64,000 nucleotides of DNA, taken from Sulfuricurvum sp. GTDB lineage: Bacteria > Campylobacterota > Campylobacteria > Campylobacterales > Sulfurimonadaceae. The notes under the pieces were generated by a model. The model was not told the origin of the DNA, did not search any database, and worked only from the letters and a program-made list of their open reading frames with translations. The translations under genes and the position numbers were made by a program. The stretch covers positions 186,001 through 250,000 of the forward strand of contig JAUXYP010000002.1 in NCBI GenBank assembly GCA_030694265.1, written 5' to 3'. Positions 41,860-47,567 of this stretch are shown here, piece after piece (positions within the stretch are counted from its first letter, which is position 1; every line of letters begins with the position of its first letter).

Positions 41860-42081
41860 GTGAATGTCAAAGTCTCTTTAACACTCAATGCAAAGCGATA
41901 CGATATTGATGTTGAAGAAGATTTTGCCCATTTTTTGACAGGGCATATGAAGCACGATTTTCAGGTTGATGGCAATAATGATCTTCGTGCACTTTTGCAG
42001 GCATATGTTCGCAGTAACTTTGCATTGTATACCCAAGAAAAAGAAATTACTTCTTTAGTGGATAAACTACAAACGATTTAA
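41860..42081 (+). CDS. small protein of unknown function, paired with the coiled-coil gene
   Basis: A 73-residue protein from a GTG start: VNVKVSLTLNAKRYDIDVEE, then a helical part LRALLQAYVRSNFALYTQEKE. The beta-strand start followed by a long helix resembles ZapA-type layout only loosely. It starts 3 bases after the coiled-coil gene, with no independent ribosome binding site, so translation is probably coupled. Not recognised. Confidence 0.6.
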   Translation: MNVKVSLTLNAKRYDIDVEEDFAHFLTGHMKHDFQVDGNNDLRALLQAYVRSNFALYTQEKEITSLVDKLQTI

Positions 42082-42085
42082 TCCC

Positions 42086-42118
42086 CTTCACAATCTCTTC
42101 ACAATCATTTTTTATACT
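42086..42118 (+). promoter_or_regulatory. direct-repeat operator and -10 for the cytochrome c operon
   Basis: CTTCACAATC occurs twice, at 42086-42095 and 42097-42106: an exact 10-base direct repeat with 11-base periodicity. It is followed by a T-run and the -10 TATACT (42113-42118). OmpR/PhoB-type regulators bind just such 11-base direct repeats over the -35. A response regulator of this class is encoded 1.9 kb away (44008-44676). Confidence 0.6.
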
Positions 42119-42173
42119 GCTCCTATCAAATGAGAGTCTCAACTAAGAGATTTTCAAAATGAAGGAGTTACCA

Positions 42174-42503
42174 ATGAAAAAGTTACTAATGATCTTAGCT
42201 TCAGTTGCCTTAGTGGTTTCGGTTGCACAAGCAGATGTAAAATCAGGGCAAAAAGCGTATTTAAAAACGTTAAAAAGCTATTTTTCCATGAATGGAACCA
42301 AGTTTGCGGCAGAGCATTCGGTAGCTGAGTGGGAAGCGCTTTTTGCCGATGGTGCAAAAGGATTTATCAAAGAGTACGGTGAGCGTTTTCCAAATGCACA
42401 AGCGCAATTAAATAACCCGGCTAACGCTGCCAAGCTTCAAGATATTGGCGATTTCGCAAAAGAATACGGCAACGATTCGGGTAATGTCCCATCTTGCGGT
42501 TAA
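42174..42503 (+). CDS. small periplasmic protein
   Basis: The product is 109 residues with a signal peptide (MKKLLMILASVALVVSVAQA, cleavage about after residue 20). I use the ATG at 42174, with AAGGAG 7 bases upstream, not the in-frame ATG at 42159. The mature part is helical (SGQKAYLKTLKSYFSMNGTK, HSVAEWEALFADG) and ends NVPSCG, with a single Cys; no CxxCH heme site. The shape resembles a cytochrome-like helical fold without heme, which is only a guess. It lies 24 bases before a cytochrome c gene, under a direct-repeat promoter. Confidence 0.65.
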   Translation: MKKLLMILASVALVVSVAQADVKSGQKAYLKTLKSYFSMNGTKFAAEHSVAEWEALFADGAKGFIKEYGERFPNAQAQLNNPANAAKLQDIGDFAKEYGNDSGNVPSCG

Positions 42504-42527
42504 ATAAAGAGTATACATAAAGGATTT

Positions 42528-42824
42528 ATGATGAAAACGTTACTTGCAATTTTAGGTCTTACGGTTATGTTGAGCGCTGCGGATGGCAGTGCTTTGTATC
42601 AAAAATGTGCGGCGTGTCACGGGCTAAAAGGGGAAAAACAGGCCCTAGGAAAGTCTCAGGCTATTGGCGGATGGAAAGCGGATAAAACGCTTGAAGCTCT
42701 GAAGGGCTATAAAGCTGGAACCCGTAATACCAAAGGGATGGGTGCTTTGATGAAAGGTCAAATGGCGAGTATTAATGATGCTGATATGAAAGTATTGGCA
42801 GATTACATCGCAACAATAAAATAA
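42528..42824 (+). CDS. monoheme c-type cytochrome (c553-like)
   Basis: A 98-residue periplasmic cytochrome c: signal peptide to about residue 17 (LSAA), heme site CAACH in YQKCAACHGLKGE, and a late Met ligand candidate in KGMGALMKGQM. The size and the GWKADKTLEALKGYKAG block match class I c553-type electron carriers in Campylobacterota, which feed terminal oxidases or peroxidases. It probably forms an operon with the preceding small periplasmic protein and converges on a sensor kinase gene. Confidence 0.88.
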   Translation: MMKTLLAILGLTVMLSAADGSALYQKCAACHGLKGEKQALGKSQAIGGWKADKTLEALKGYKAGTRNTKGMGALMKGQMASINDADMKVLADYIATIK

Positions 42825-42857: not shown

Positions 42858-44045
42858 TTAGCCCCTCCAACTCACACAAATCTTCGTTCCCTTTTGCTCT
42901 TCGGATTCGATGGTGATATCTAGATCATATTCTTTTGCGATCATGGCAACGATATGCAGACCGATCCCGAATCCCCCAACACTTTTATCGGCTCTGGTAT
43001 AGCGCTCGAATACCTGTTGGATCATGGAGGAAGGAATTCCGATTCCATTATCTTGTATGCACAACAATGTCGGATTTAAGTTAATGGTGAGGATTCCCTC
43101 CATTTTGTTGTATTTGATAGCATTTGAGAGGAGGTTGTCGATAATACGGGTCATCTTGGTACGATCAATGGTGAGGATACAATGAGGGGTTATAGCAAGC
43201 TCTACGTGAAGCTTCTTTTGCACTATGTGATGGCGAAAGTATTCCAGCCGTTCTTGTAATAATTCACTCACATCAAGCGGTTCGTTTATGACGGCCAGAT
43301 CATGATTCAAGATGAGGTAGGTCAGATCATTGTACAGGGTGGAGATTGTTCGCGATGCGATTTCGATACGGTTTAATTTTTTTTGCATCGTTTGAGGGAT
43401 ATCTGTTTCTTTAAGTGCTTCTAAATTGGTCAAAATAGCACTAATGGGTGTGTTGAGCTCATGGGTGGTGTCTTTGATAAAATCATCCAATAGGGCAATG
43501 GCTTCGTTCATTGGGCGCAAGAGTAAGCGAGAAAATATAAAGCCGATCAGAAGTAAAAAAGTGAATAAGATGGACCCAATTACAACCGATGTTTCAATAG
43601 CATCTGTTCGCCATAATCCATCATCAGGGGTTTCGATTACCAAATAAAACTCTCCCAGCCCATAAGGGGCCAAAGGGACAACAAGATGCACGTAGTTGTT
43701 TTTTAAGGCAATGTTCTCTTTGAAATCTATGGAATTATTGTGTAAATTTCCAACAAGAATTTTTTTATCGTATCCATAAAGAGCGGTTTCGTAAGCGAGA
43801 TCTTTTGGGAATGTGGCCAGATCGCGGTCTTTTTCAAGCCATTGTTTGAGGATGGGGACATAGCTCTCAGATTCCAACTGCATCGCAAGCCGGTGAGAGG
43901 AGAGCATCTGCATTTTAGAGTATTGAAAATACAACGTCCCTAATAATGCCAGAATCACGATAATCAACGCTCCATAGAGCGCCAAAAATCGTTTGAGTGT
44001 TCGGTATTTAGCGGAACTGATACCCGATGCGTTTGTGGCTGACAA
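42858..44045 (-). CDS. two-component sensor histidine kinase (system 1)
   Basis: A 395-residue membrane kinase: TM1 about residues 21-40, periplasmic sensor about 41-150, TM2 about 151-174, then the HisKA domain with phospho-acceptor His195 in THELNTPISAIL, and an ATPase domain with NLLSNAIKYN, DNGIGIP and GFGIGLHIV. The sensor shows no known domain. A TTG start at 44045 is used, overlapping the regulator gene by 38 bases with GGATCG upstream; there is no nearby ATG. It pairs with the regulator at 44008-44676. Confidence 0.9.
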   Translation of the reverse strand: MSATNASGISSAKYRTLKRFLALYGALIIVILALLGTLYFQYSKMQMLSSHRLAMQLESESYVPILKQWLEKDRDLATFPKDLAYETALYGYDKKILVGNLHNNSIDFKENIALKNNYVHLVVPLAPYGLGEFYLVIETPDDGLWRTDAIETSVVIGSILFTFLLLIGFIFSRLLLRPMNEAIALLDDFIKDTTHELNTPISAILTNLEALKETDIPQTMQKKLNRIEIASRTISTLYNDLTYLILNHDLAVINEPLDVSELLQERLEYFRHHIVQKKLHVELAITPHCILTIDRTKMTRIIDNLLSNAIKYNKMEGILTINLNPTLLCIQDNGIGIPSSMIQQVFERYTRADKSVGGFGIGLHIVAMIAKEYDLDITIESEEQKGTKICVSWRG

Positions 44046-44676
44046 TACGATCCTTTCCTAATAGTTTGCGAAGCGTTTTAATGTAGGTGCGCAGGCTTCC
44101 ATCGTTGGACGTTTCATCGTATTCCCATAAATGATCTATGATGGTTTCGTGTGTAAGCAGTTCTCCGGTATGTTGAATAAAGAGTTTGAGCAGTTTGTGT
44201 TCTTTGGGTTGAAGTGATTGCTCGGCGCCATTGATTTTGAGGGATTGATTCTCGGTATCGTAGCTAATTCCTTCTCCCAAAGCAATAACATCGCTGGGTG
44301 GGTGATAAAAATTACGTTTGAGTATGGTTTGTATCCGTAATAGAAGCTCTTTAAGTTCGTAAGGTTTGCGCAAGTAATCATCACCTCCGCTTTTAAATCC
44401 TTCTTCCAAATCGTTCATAGCGTTACGAGAGGTGATAAAAATGGCAGGAGTAGTATTCCCACTGCTGCGGGAGTTTTTCAAAAGTGAAAATCCATCCCCT
44501 CCGGGAACATTGACATCCAGCAGGAGTAAATCAAATTTGGTTTCATAAAGGAGGTCTTCTGCGCTTGCGGCATCGTAGGCACAGACAACCGTATACCCTT
44601 GAGCCTCTAGATATTCAGCGACGCTCTCGGAGAGGTTTGGATCATCTTCTAAAAGAAATAGCTTTGCTTTTGTCAT
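44008..44676 (-). CDS. OmpR-family response regulator (system 1)
   Basis: A 222-residue regulator: receiver domain with acidic pocket LLEDD, phospho-acceptor Asp54 in LLLLDVNVPGGDG, conserved Thr/Ser and Lys in FITSR and LRKPYEL; then an OmpR/PhoB winged helix with LTHETIIDHLWEYDETSNDGSLRTYIKTLRKLL (blocks LTHETIIDHLW, SLRTYIKTLRKLL) and RIGYQF. It is first of the pair with the kinase. Its likely target is the TTCACAATC direct repeat at 42086-42106, by proximity and spacing. Confidence 0.9.
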   Translation of the reverse strand: MTKAKLFLLEDDPNLSESVAEYLEAQGYTVVCAYDAASAEDLLYETKFDLLLLDVNVPGGDGFSLLKNSRSSGNTTPAIFITSRNAMNDLEEGFKSGGDDYLRKPYELKELLLRIQTILKRNFYHPPSDVIALGEGISYDTENQSLKINGAEQSLQPKEHKLLKLFIQHTGELLTHETIIDHLWEYDETSNDGSLRTYIKTLRKLLGKDRIVSHKRIGYQFR

Positions 44677-44701: not shown

Positions 44702-45511
44702 CTAAAAATAATAACCTAACCGCACGGCAATCTCGTTGTCACTGGTGGAATCACTCAGTCCATAGCGGTAATTTCCCAAAACAAACCAATGGGCATCGAG
44801 GGGAACCATACCATTAAGGGAAAAAGTTTTAAACGCTTCAACTCCTGTATAAATACTTTGGGATTGCGTATAGGCGACATTTACAAATCCGTTATTAAGC
44901 GTAGCGTATCCAATACCTGCGGTAAAAGCGGTGGTGTTGCGATATTGCACTGTATTGGGGATATTTTTATCGTTGGTCAGTGTGTAGGTTAACCCTCCAA
45001 AAACATGGTAGTGTTCATTCAAATCATACTGTGCATTTATGGATCCAAAGATATCTATAGCTTCGTTGTTGTACCCTGACTTATAGGTGGGTAAAATAAC
45101 TCCAAATCCTGGTTGGAGCGTTAGCGAAGAAGAAGGGTGCGTTTTAATATACAATCCCAACTGAGTATCATTCCATCCACTATCACTGGTATTGGTTTCA
45201 TCGGATCGAAAATAAGAGGTTAAAATCTGCGCGGACATATTTCCACGGTACACATCTGCTTGTAAAGTTGTCGTCAGAGTATTGGCCTTTTCCAAGGTAT
45301 TGTAATTGGTATCCGAATAGTTTGCACCAACGATGACATCGTAGGAAGTATCCGTAAAGAGTGTTTTCTTGGTACATCCAACATTGTCGACTAGATCACC
45401 AAAGGGAGTGTTCTTGCATCGATCCAATGTGTTATTGACTCCATCTAGATCGCTATCGGCCGCAAAAATCTGTAAAACACTTAGTAAAAGAATGAGTAGT
45501 ATTCGTTGCAT
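44702..45511 (-). CDS. outer membrane beta-barrel protein with one calcium-type repeat
   Basis: The 269-residue product has a signal peptide (about 1-17), then a thrombospondin type 3-like Ca-binding unit DSDLDGVNNTLDRCKNTPFGD with VDNVGC, followed by a barrel with alternating strands and many aromatic strand ends, closing EIAVRLGYYF (a C-terminal aromatic as in outer membrane barrels). The barrel resembles DUF3187/transporter-like porins. It follows the Met-rich secreted-protein gene by 8 bases and precedes system 1, so it may be in that operon. Function unknown. Confidence 0.75.
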   Translation of the reverse strand: MQRILLILLLSVLQIFAADSDLDGVNNTLDRCKNTPFGDLVDNVGCTKKTLFTDTSYDVIVGANYSDTNYNTLEKANTLTTTLQADVYRGNMSAQILTSYFRSDETNTSDSGWNDTQLGLYIKTHPSSSLTLQPGFGVILPTYKSGYNNEAIDIFGSINAQYDLNEHYHVFGGLTYTLTNDKNIPNTVQYRNTTAFTAGIGYATLNNGFVNVAYTQSQSIYTGVEAFKTFSLNGMVPLDAHWFVLGNYRYGLSDSTSDNEIAVRLGYYF

Positions 45512-45519
45512 AAGATCTC

Positions 45520-45846
45520 CTAGCGTCGAGTGTTTGTATGTTGATTGTTCATTGCGCCCATACTGCCTTGATGTTGTACATTAGAGTGCATGTTTTGCAT
45601 CGACATATCTTGTCCGCTGCGTGTGCCCGCCAAATTTCCATTCATCCCTATTTGAAGCTTGCGAATTGCTTCGCTTCGCTCTTGTGCATTCATAGCGGCG
45701 AGTCTTGTTTTGAGTTGATTCATCATCTCTGCCCGTTCTTTTTGAGGGGCTTTTAGGATGCGTGTAATTTCTTGATCGATTGAGCTGTCCGCATAGAGAT
45801 GACTGATCAAAGCGAGAAAGAGTACAACAGAGATACTACGTTTCAT
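45520..45846 (-). CDS. secreted Met/His/Gln-rich protein A
   Basis: The 108-residue product has a signal peptide (MKRSISVVLFLALISHLYA, about 19 residues). A helical middle (IDQEITRILKAPQKERAEMM, LAAMNAQERSEAIRKLQ) is followed by a tail rich in Met, His, Gln and Asn: QDMSMQNMHSNVQHQGSMG then AMNNQH. Such Met/His tails can bind copper or silver ions. The helical part recalls CpxP/Spy-type periplasmic sensors, but I see no LTxxQ motif. It is preceded at 45886-45907 by the operator-like repeat shared with protein B. Confidence 0.7.
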   Translation of the reverse strand: MKRSISVVLFLALISHLYADSSIDQEITRILKAPQKERAEMMNQLKTRLAAMNAQERSEAIRKLQIGMNGNLAGTRSGQDMSMQNMHSNVQHQGSMGAMNNQHTNTRR

Positions 45847-45885
45847 TAAAGAATCCTTCTTAATTTCAATAGAGTATTTTAGGCA

Positions 45886-45907
45886 AAAAACATTAGCGAA
45901 GCGTTAG
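45886..45907 (-). promoter_or_regulatory. 22-bp regulatory element, copy 1 (before protein A)
   Basis: On the plus strand: AAAAACATTAG, CGAAG, CGTTAG. It contains TTAG at 45893 and 45904, an exact 11-base period. It matches the element at 48002-48023 at 19 of 22 positions. It ends 40 bases before the protein A ATG and overlaps the stop of the system 2 kinase gene. Confidence 0.65.
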
Positions 45908-46948
45908 TGCTTTTAGGTTCAGAGTAAAAAGACTTCCCTGATTCACGGTACTTTGGACATGAATTATTATACCAAGCTCATCACACAATTTTTTAACGAT
46001 ATGGAGTCCTATTCCAAGTCCTCGTTCATGTTCTTTATAAAAACGATCAAATATTTTTTCAGGATAGTGAATCCCTTTTCCGGTATCTTGGATACGCAGT
46101 ATTGCCGTTTTGGGATCAATGTTGATGGTTACAGACCCCTGATCTGTATTGTATTTAGCGGCATTGCTCAACAAATTGTCGATAATGCGGGTGATAGCAT
46201 CGTGATTGACGAGAATTTTGAGCGTTGAATCGTTAATGAAGAAAGAAATATGAGGGTACAGTCTTTGGACGATCGCAAGTCGTTCTTGCAGTAACGTATG
46301 CAGTTCCAATGGAGCACTTTGGAGGGCATGCCCCTCGAGGTATCCACGTAAATTGTCGCCAAGAGAAACGATGGTCTGTATGCTTTGTTCGATTCGATGA
46401 AGCTTTTTTGTTTCGCTTTGGGGGAGGTTTAATCGGCTGACATTAAGCCGTAAACTGGAGAGTGGCGTGTTTAAATCATGCAGTATATCGCGACTGAATT
46501 CTTGAGTTAAATGCAATGCTTTTCGTAGAGGATACAGAGCGTAAAGTGAAAAGAGGGCAGACAATAGAGCAAGAACTGTCAGGATAATCAGATAGGTTTT
46601 GATCATTGTGGTTTTTGTTTGATACAGCAGCGCTTCATAATGGCGCTTGGCATAATGAAGCTTGAGCGCGTATTGGTCGCTTCCTGGAATGGAGAAGAGG
46701 GCGTACATCCCCCCTTGATCCTGCTGTAGTTGGTAAAGGGTGCTGGTATGCAAAGGGACAAAATCAAAAGTAAACTGGGTACACTTTAAATCGAAACTGC
46801 ATAACTTCATTTCGTTGAAAACAGAGAGCTCAATTGCCTGACGTTTCTTGGTGTACTCATAATAGACAACCAAACCGCTTAACAGTGCGAGAGAGATGAA
46901 GAACACTAAAAAGCTTTTGATAAAAGATTCTGTTTCAGCTCTCTTCAA
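45893..46948 (-). CDS. two-component sensor histidine kinase (system 2)
   Basis: A 351-residue kinase: TM1 about residues 11-31, a periplasmic loop of about 80 residues with two Cys (50 and 56, in KLCSFDLKC), TM2 about 115-139, then HisKA with His157 in DILHDLNTPLSSLRLN and the ATPase domain with NLLSNAAKYN, DTGKGI and RGLGIGLHIV. The two Cys in the sensor could form a disulfide or bind metal. Its start overlaps the regulator's end by 14 bases. The 22-bp element of protein A overlaps its stop codon. Confidence 0.9.
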   Translation of the reverse strand: MKRAETESFIKSFLVFFISLALLSGLVVYYEYTKKRQAIELSVFNEMKLCSFDLKCTQFTFDFVPLHTSTLYQLQQDQGGMYALFSIPGSDQYALKLHYAKRHYEALLYQTKTTMIKTYLIILTVLALLSALFSLYALYPLRKALHLTQEFSRDILHDLNTPLSSLRLNVSRLNLPQSETKKLHRIEQSIQTIVSLGDNLRGYLEGHALQSAPLELHTLLQERLAIVQRLYPHISFFINDSTLKILVNHDAITRIIDNLLSNAAKYNTDQGSVTINIDPKTAILRIQDTGKGIHYPEKIFDRFYKEHERGLGIGLHIVKKLCDELGIIIHVQSTVNQGSLFTLNLKALTLR

Positions 46949-47567
46949 GACGGTATCCTATTCCTCTTACATTGTGAATTTCCCATCCAGTAGTATGTTT
47001 GAGTTTGTTAATCGCAACGCGCAAGGCGGTATCGCTTGGATGCTCCATAAGATCAAAAAGAGATTCTTTGGTAAGTGTTTTACCGATATTTTCGATAAAT
47101 AATTGCAAGAATGGGAGTTGAACTTCTCCCAGTGTAATAAGGTAATTGTTTTTTTTGACTTCACGAGTTTGTGGGTTGAATTCAATCTCCCCAACCTGAA
47201 TGAGTTTTTCTTTTCTGGCCATTTTTGCCTGAATACGTACGAGCAGTTCTTCAGGGAAAAACGGTTTTTTGAGATAATCTTCCGCCCCTAATGTAAAACC
47301 TTTGGAAATAGTGGCAATATCACTCATCGCGCTGATAAAAATAACAGAGGTGCTATCACCTGCATGACGTAAATCTTCGAGGAGTTGCAACCCATTTATT
47401 TTTGGGACGTTGATATCGAGAATGTAGAGATCATATCGGGTGTCGAATGAAGCATCGGCAGCTTCTTCACCATCTTTGACCCAATTGACATCATGATGAG
47501 CTTCCATTAGCATCTCTTCGATGGTTTCACCCAGGATGGTATCGTCTTCCATAAGCAATATTTTCAC
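46935..47567 (-). CDS. OmpR-family response regulator (system 2)
   Basis: A 210-residue regulator: MEDD acidic pocket, phospho-acceptor Asp51 in LYILDINVPKINGLQLL, FISAMSD and LKKPFFPEELL; then an OmpR-type winged helix with KESLFDLMEHPSDTALRVAIN and VRGIGYRLEES. It is slightly shorter in the DNA-binding part than PhoB-type proteins. A palindromic ATTATAAT at 47597-47604 gives a -10 about 30 bases upstream. It is the best candidate to bind the paired 22-bp elements flanking its operon. Confidence 0.9.
   Translation of the reverse strand: MKILLMEDDTILGETIEEMLMEAHHDVNWVKDGEEAADASFDTRYDLYILDINVPKINGLQLLEDLRHAGDSTSVIFISAMSDIATISKGFTLGAEDYLKKPFFPEELLVRIQAKMARKEKLIQVGEIEFNPQTREVKKNNYLITLGEVQLPFLQLFIENIGKTLTKESLFDLMEHPSDTALRVAINKLKHTTGWEIHNVRGIGYRLEES

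Follow-up and report, generated by a model that had tools for sequence, protein, structure and literature searches.

The promoter of a small cytochrome c operon in Sulfuricurvum sp. carries two direct half-sites with an 11-base period. This box is very probably the site at which a dimer of RR1, the OmpR/PhoB-type response regulator encoded in the neighboring convergent operon, would bind and, when phosphorylated, switch on the cytochrome operon (42174-42824). Sequence comparison established the box, its conservation, its fixed promoter spacing, and its association across families with RR1 orthologues and cytochrome c genes. The window (the whole stretch of 64,000 nucleotides that was analyzed, C18:186001-250000 of a 2.15 Mb assembly) contained the following features at this locus:

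42086-42095, plus strand: first half-site of the box, CTTCACAATC; CTYCACAAT in 11 of 14 relatives; the remaining three each carry a single change
42097-42106, plus strand: second half-site, CTTCACAATC, 11 bp after the first; CTYCACAAT in 15 of 15 promoters, the window's own included
42107-42112, plus strand: T-rich spacer from the box to the -10 element; all 15 promoters have 10 bases between the second TYCAC and the -10
42113-42118, plus strand: -10 element, TATACT in 15 of 15 promoters
42162-42167, plus strand: AAGGAG, recognized by eye as the ribosome binding site serving the ATG at 42174
42174-42503, plus strand: first gene of the operon, a periplasmic protein of 109 amino acids, homologous to small c-type cytochromes and without CxxCH (homologue alignment)
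42528-42824, plus strand: second gene of the operon, a class I monoheme cytochrome c of 98 amino acids (PF00034, E 4.4e-11)
42858-44045, minus strand: HK1, the sensor histidine kinase of system 1 (HisKA, HATPase_c)
44008-44676, minus strand: RR1, an OmpR/PhoB-type response regulator (Response_reg, Trans_reg_C), the proposed box binder by neighborhood, co-occurrence and phylogeny

Architecture of the cytochrome promoter

The initial annotation had described an exact 11-base direct repeat followed by a T-run and TATACT, and all three elements were present at 42086-42118. The 11-base period and the TTCACA-N5-TTCACA pattern were also read correctly, while the exactly repeated unit proved to be 10 bases long, with T at 42096 and A at 42107. 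The box contains an exact TTCAC-N6-TTCAC core (TTCACAATCTCTTCAC); the second CTTCACAATC is followed by an A, the T-run, and then TATACT, which lies 10 bases past the second TTCAC and 6 bases past the end of the box. A search for CTTCACAATCNCTTCACAATC with up to three mismatches gave one match in the window, where 0.01 was expected from shuffled sequence, and the repeat pair is far from chance. The core TTCAC-N6-TTCAC with up to one mismatch was not in excess in the window (5 matches, 5.98 expected), and its count in the whole genome was not unusual (172, versus 157 for a reversed control).

A classical -35 element at 17-base spacing would fall at 42090-42095 (ACAATC), within the first half-site. 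Relative to a presumed transcription start near 42125, the box spans approximately -39 to -19, with both half-sites on the same side of the helix. Translation likely begins at 42174 rather than at the start of the open reading frame at 42159. Two direct half-sites about 11 bp apart, overlapping the -35 position (from the presumed start) at a fixed distance from the -10 in all 15 promoters, are what is expected of an OmpR/PhoB-type box, and the activator layout proposed in the initial annotation therefore appears sound. A DnaA box was considered and rejected: the best word, CTCTTCACA at 42095, had mismatches at 2 of 9 positions, and conservation reached the AAT and the fixed -10.

The first protein of the operon had no Pfam match, and its structural model had no counterpart in the PDB (best E 3.6), but in the alignment two homologues from other genera had a CKKCH heme motif. 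HK1 was 68-83% identical in 12 relatives across almost its full length, and by eye its periplasmic domain is flanked by two membrane helices; its structural model was of low confidence (pLDDT 67), with the periplasmic domain poorly modeled. Adjoining system 1 on the minus strand (44702-47567) were genes for a beta-barrel protein, a small periplasmic protein, and a second response regulator-kinase pair (system 2), an order found also in several relatives.

Conservation of the box within the genus

Fourteen relatives were identified using the first protein of the operon, 12 of them labeled Sulfuricurvum and the others labeled only Epsilonproteobacteria and Campylobacterales. The box was found at the cytochrome operon in every one, 12 matching TYCACAATNNNTYCACAAT exactly and two with one mismatch; for one relative, whose locus (L042) was cut upstream, the box was taken from another contig (L114) whose final stretch overlaps with the beginning of L042. 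Across the 15 promoters, the second half-site CTYCACAAT, TATACT, and the 10-base gap between TYCAC and TATACT were all invariant. Variation was confined to the third base of each half-site, which was T or C, and to single changes in the first half-site in three relatives. RR1 was encoded within the retrieved locus in 12 of the 14, and in the other two on the same contig, 7.3 and 10.4 kb away.

The box pattern with up to one mismatch was not enriched by number in the 14 relatives (29 matches, versus 36 for the reversed control); it is position, not number, that distinguishes the box in these genomes. By eye, 14 of the 29 matches were in the cytochrome promoter, seven were upstream of glycine-zipper-like genes, three preceded a gene for a small glycine-rich protein, two preceded a DUF302-type gene, and three were intragenic. 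Pfam searches of the window genome's own box-associated genes identified two glycine-zipper proteins, one DUF302 protein, and CcoN. The cbb3 oxidase gene ccoN has a perfect 19-base box 186 bp upstream (G000:C18:101204, L011), but none of the 14 relatives matched it within three mismatches; with this lack of conservation and a poor -10 it was dropped as a strong regulon member. The porin site (L012) was likewise set aside, its support being limited to the window genome.

The initial annotation had also compared the repeat with Pho boxes and suggested looking for the motif near pho or respiration genes. The boxes examined stood mostly before genes for cytochrome c and envelope proteins, and no phosphate gene was noticed downstream of them. 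The Pho-box likeness was not supported. An 11-bp direct repeat with TCACA-like words does resemble a Pho box in outline, but the E. coli sequence (CTGTCAT-N4-CTGTCAT) fits the repeat with 6 of 14 mismatches at best, and, given also the genes found downstream, recognition by a PhoB/PhosR homologue is scarcely credible.

Association of the box with RR1 across the phylum

Of 298 genomes, 95 had matches to a composite of the box and the -10 element, TYCAC-N6-TYCAC-N10-TAWAMT, and these totaled 165, versus 15 for the reversed control (table summed by hand). Twenty box loci outside Sulfuricurvum, with as much as 6 kb of sequence on either side, were picked by hand from families f1, f7, f8, f9 and f10, a choice that favored TYCACAAT-like boxes and spread. 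In 18 of the 20, the locus contained a response regulator whose best match among the window genome's 20 OmpR-type regulators was RR1 (50-60% identity); the exceptions were L191 and L190, in the latter of which the regulator was closer to L057. A class I c-type cytochrome was the first or second gene past the box in 16 of the 20. A transposase-like open reading frame lay between box and cytochrome gene in L182, a glycine-zipper-like gene came first after the box in L184, other genes followed it in L190 and L191, and the gene in L192 could not be resolved.

Gene order differed among these groups. The kinase and cytochrome operons are convergent in Sulfuricurvum and genus g6, whereas in f7, f8, f9, f10 and genus g2 of f1 the regulator and kinase genes are followed co-directionally by the box and cytochrome gene, mostly with a small CxxCH gene between. 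That the association of box and RR1 survives this rearrangement is the strongest argument for RR1. A small CxxCH protein gene followed the RR1-type kinase in L174, L175, L180-L189, L192, L230, L240, L241 and L243. The window genome had no clear homologue of this protein (best E 0.03), which is possibly a sensor partner of the RR1-type kinase.

Two further arrangements were observed. In L190 (G070:C1:2609177), a TCCAC-N6-TCCAC box with a -10 preceded a copper-type operon near the regulator closer to L057; by eye this operon encodes a small periplasmic protein and TolC-like and RND efflux proteins, reminiscent of crdAB-czc. In L155-L158 and L147 (f3 genus g8; f7 genus g23), the composite box was followed by a small open reading frame and then a regulator-kinase operon, which suggests autoregulation.

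The association was also examined in reverse, starting from the regulator. A search with the RR1 protein gave matches with E values no higher than 1e-62 in 30 of 61 family genomes, and 16 of these, together with four genomes from f4, f11 and f12, provided 20 reverse loci; the window's own genome, eight of its genus, and G157, G204, G301, G335 and G347 were left out. Three of the loci (L236, L238 and L239) belong to genus g6, which was already represented in the box set. With a matrix trained solely on Sulfuricurvum promoters, nine of the 20 scored 24.0-39.6, versus a maximum of 12.7 among 400 shuffles, and two others (12.0 and 10.1) exceeded their own 20 shuffles and hold a weaker box. Nine of these 11 boxes were convergent to RR1 and two co-directional. 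Ten preceded either a cytochrome c gene or a homologue, with or without the heme motif, and then a cytochrome c gene; downstream of the eleventh (L233) the genes could not be resolved.

The remaining nine reverse loci had no convincing box by the matrix. A variant box was visible by eye in L243, the stretch upstream of the cytochrome gene in L224 mirrors itself, perhaps through an assembly fault, and the contig of L232 ends within the locus. L227, L234 and L237, all from f1 genus g62, had a different gene or little sequence past the kinase, and no box was found in L239, L241 or L242. In genus g62 a TonB-receptor-like gene followed the RR1-type kinase in L227 and L234, and a TTAACA/GTAACA repeat, possibly a diverged box, preceded a -10 downstream of the kinase in L234 and L237.

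As a control, the matrix was applied to 16 loci surrounding 18 of the window genome's other 19 response regulators, and these scored 8.1 or less; the RR1 locus, in which RR2 also lies, scored 52.0, the window promoter being part of the training set. Among the 20 family genomes covered by both scans, the composite box was present anywhere in the genome in all six with RR1 and in two of the 14 without (G213 and G265), a co-occurrence with a Fisher value of 0.0007 that treats related, non-independent genomes as independent. In a tree of 73 response regulators, all 26 RR1-type proteins (18 from box loci, four from f4, f11 and f12, and four from Sulfuricurvum, including the window's) formed one clade with modest support (0.743), and the DccR-like and L057-like regulators fell outside it. 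The initial annotation had named the regulator of system 1 as the nearest protein of the right type; its orthologues beside the box and cytochrome c genes despite altered gene order, their single clade, and the co-occurrence all point to it as the best candidate.

Another OmpR-type regulator of the same subfamily, chiefly L057 (G000:C11:161725), might instead bind the box, with RR1 a mere neighbor. Its recognition helix, LRTHIKNLRK, is mostly that of RR1, and it has an element of its own where the gene for its kinase reaches its 3' end (CTCAC-N6-TTCAC, CTCACAGTAACTTCAC, then N10-TATAAT; G000:C11:160545-160560). However, that element reads TCACAGT and TCACTCT rather than TCACAAT and scored 2.2 with the RR1-box matrix, the cytochrome box and L057 are on different contigs of the window genome, and in 18 of the 20 box loci elsewhere the regulator is closer to RR1 than to L057; we regard this alternative as unlikely.

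A further candidate is L054 (C11:76982), the CosR/HP1043 orthologue, whose DNA-binding domain we take to be nearly identical to that of HP1043 and which could govern this promoter as HP1043 does that of H. pylori cytochrome c553. Two reports describe activation of the c553 (hp1227) promoter by HP1043 through a bound 11-bp direct repeat (PMC5253667, PMC8345958), and on the minus strand the box, with GTGAAG twice, is among the two best fits to TTTAAG-N5-TTTAAG in 42041-42180. The fit is nevertheless poor (4 of 12 mismatches), and the HP1043/CosR half-site is TTTAAG rather than TTCACAAT. L054 is also located elsewhere in the genome, where its flanks score 1.3 or less with the box matrix, and we consider control by L054 very unlikely.

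RR1 could also bind the box and repress. The repeat reaches approximately -19, so that bound RR1 could block RNA polymerase, and the 6-base gap to TATACT is shorter than in the E. coli Pho promoters. By contrast, all 15 promoters keep the box at one distance from the -10, and across the phylum the fixed-distance composite outnumbers its control; both observations fit a factor that cooperates with polymerase. DccR (PMC9449129) and HP1043 are reported to be activators, and the sites of PceP overlap the -35 of induced promoters (PMC7755780). Repression by RR1 thus seems improbable.

Proposed mechanism and known systems

For RR1, we infer binding to the box, dependence on phosphorylation, and activation rather than repression. 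HK1 would phosphorylate RR1, and an RR1 dimer would bind head-to-tail on the two TYCACAAT half-sites one helical turn apart, standing beside RNA polymerase in place of the missing -35, with the second TTCAC always 10 bases from the -10. Promoters of C. jejuni are without a -35 consensus (PMC4456614), and a regulator at that position would therefore provide an upstream contact. The operon activated would be the small one encoding the heme-less cytochrome homologue and the class I cytochrome c (42174-42824); within the genus, the box also stands before genes for glycine-zipper-like envelope proteins and a DUF302 gene. The signal would probably be a respiratory or envelope state. Other regulators of the same group (the genome's own L057, DccR, and CrdR-like proteins) probably read similar TTCAC repeats, making cross-regulation possible.

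A more tentative and rather doubtful extension is that RR1 and HK1 constitute an uncharacterized module across several families, in which the kinase would report the state of periplasmic cytochrome c (redox, heme loading or supply) and tune cytochrome c transcription. In several other families the small CxxCH protein encoded directly downstream of the kinase may be the sensor partner, and in H. pylori HP1043 would take this role at the promoter, reading another word within an identical 11-bp frame.

A published account linking this box with cytochrome c was not found in the literature searched. Judged by sequence, the box belongs to a known sort of control site, and the association of regulator and target is unusually wide and tidy. 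A two-component system tied to a small periplasmic cytochrome c by neighborhood and by a defined box offers a directly testable control point of respiration in the phylum's free-living members. It also connects DccRS with a larger set of regulators that seem to share one DNA word.

DccR of C. jejuni is the closest parallel. By eye, the gene order in G187 was hspR-cbpA-htrA-regulator-kinase, hemerythrin, regulator-kinase-groEL, which matches the Cj1230-Cj1221 region of C. jejuni (DccRS being Cj1223c-Cj1222c), and the second regulator of G187 was therefore equated with DccR. Over 203 amino acids it shares 46% identity with RR1, and the recognition helices are near-identical (LRTYIKNLRK in RR1, LRAYIKNLRK in DccR). 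The DccR box, reportedly described by Wosten in 2010, is said to be WTTCAC-N6-TTCACW over the -35. Its core, TTCAC-N6-TTCAC, is present at the window box, where the outer W before the first TTCAC is a C, and the RR1 half-sites have AAT after TYCAC, unlike the DccR box. In G187 the composite of box and -10 had four matches, upstream of genes whose small protein products begin with signal-like sequences. DccR is described as activating genes for putative periplasmic and membrane proteins (PMC9449129), and Cj0200c and MacABC are tied to the DccRS regulon (PMC11365321), whereas the main conserved target of RR1 is cytochrome c. RR1 is not a DccR orthologue, as it falls in a separate clade from the DccR of G187 and adjoins cytochrome c genes rather than hemerythrin or groEL; given the shared helix and overall likeness, it probably works like DccR.

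The other systems share the layout and differ in sequence or target. E. coli PhoB binds as a head-to-tail dimer to an 11-bp direct repeat that replaces the -35, and the Pho box thus has the layout of the RR1 box with a mismatched sequence. HP1043/HsrA at hp1227 is likewise an OmpR-family activator with an 11-bp direct repeat over the promoter of a small cytochrome c, but its half-site is TTTAAG and it belongs to a different regulator lineage (here L054). HP1043 is reported to be an orphan regulator active without phosphorylation. PceP, of the PceP/PceS system of Sulfurospirillum, is, like RR1, an OmpR-type regulator with direct repeats over the -35; these are CTATA words at an 11-bp period (PMC7755780), and it differs from RR1 in a proposed dimer site of CTATW-N17-CTATW and in its targets, the genes of organohalide respiration.
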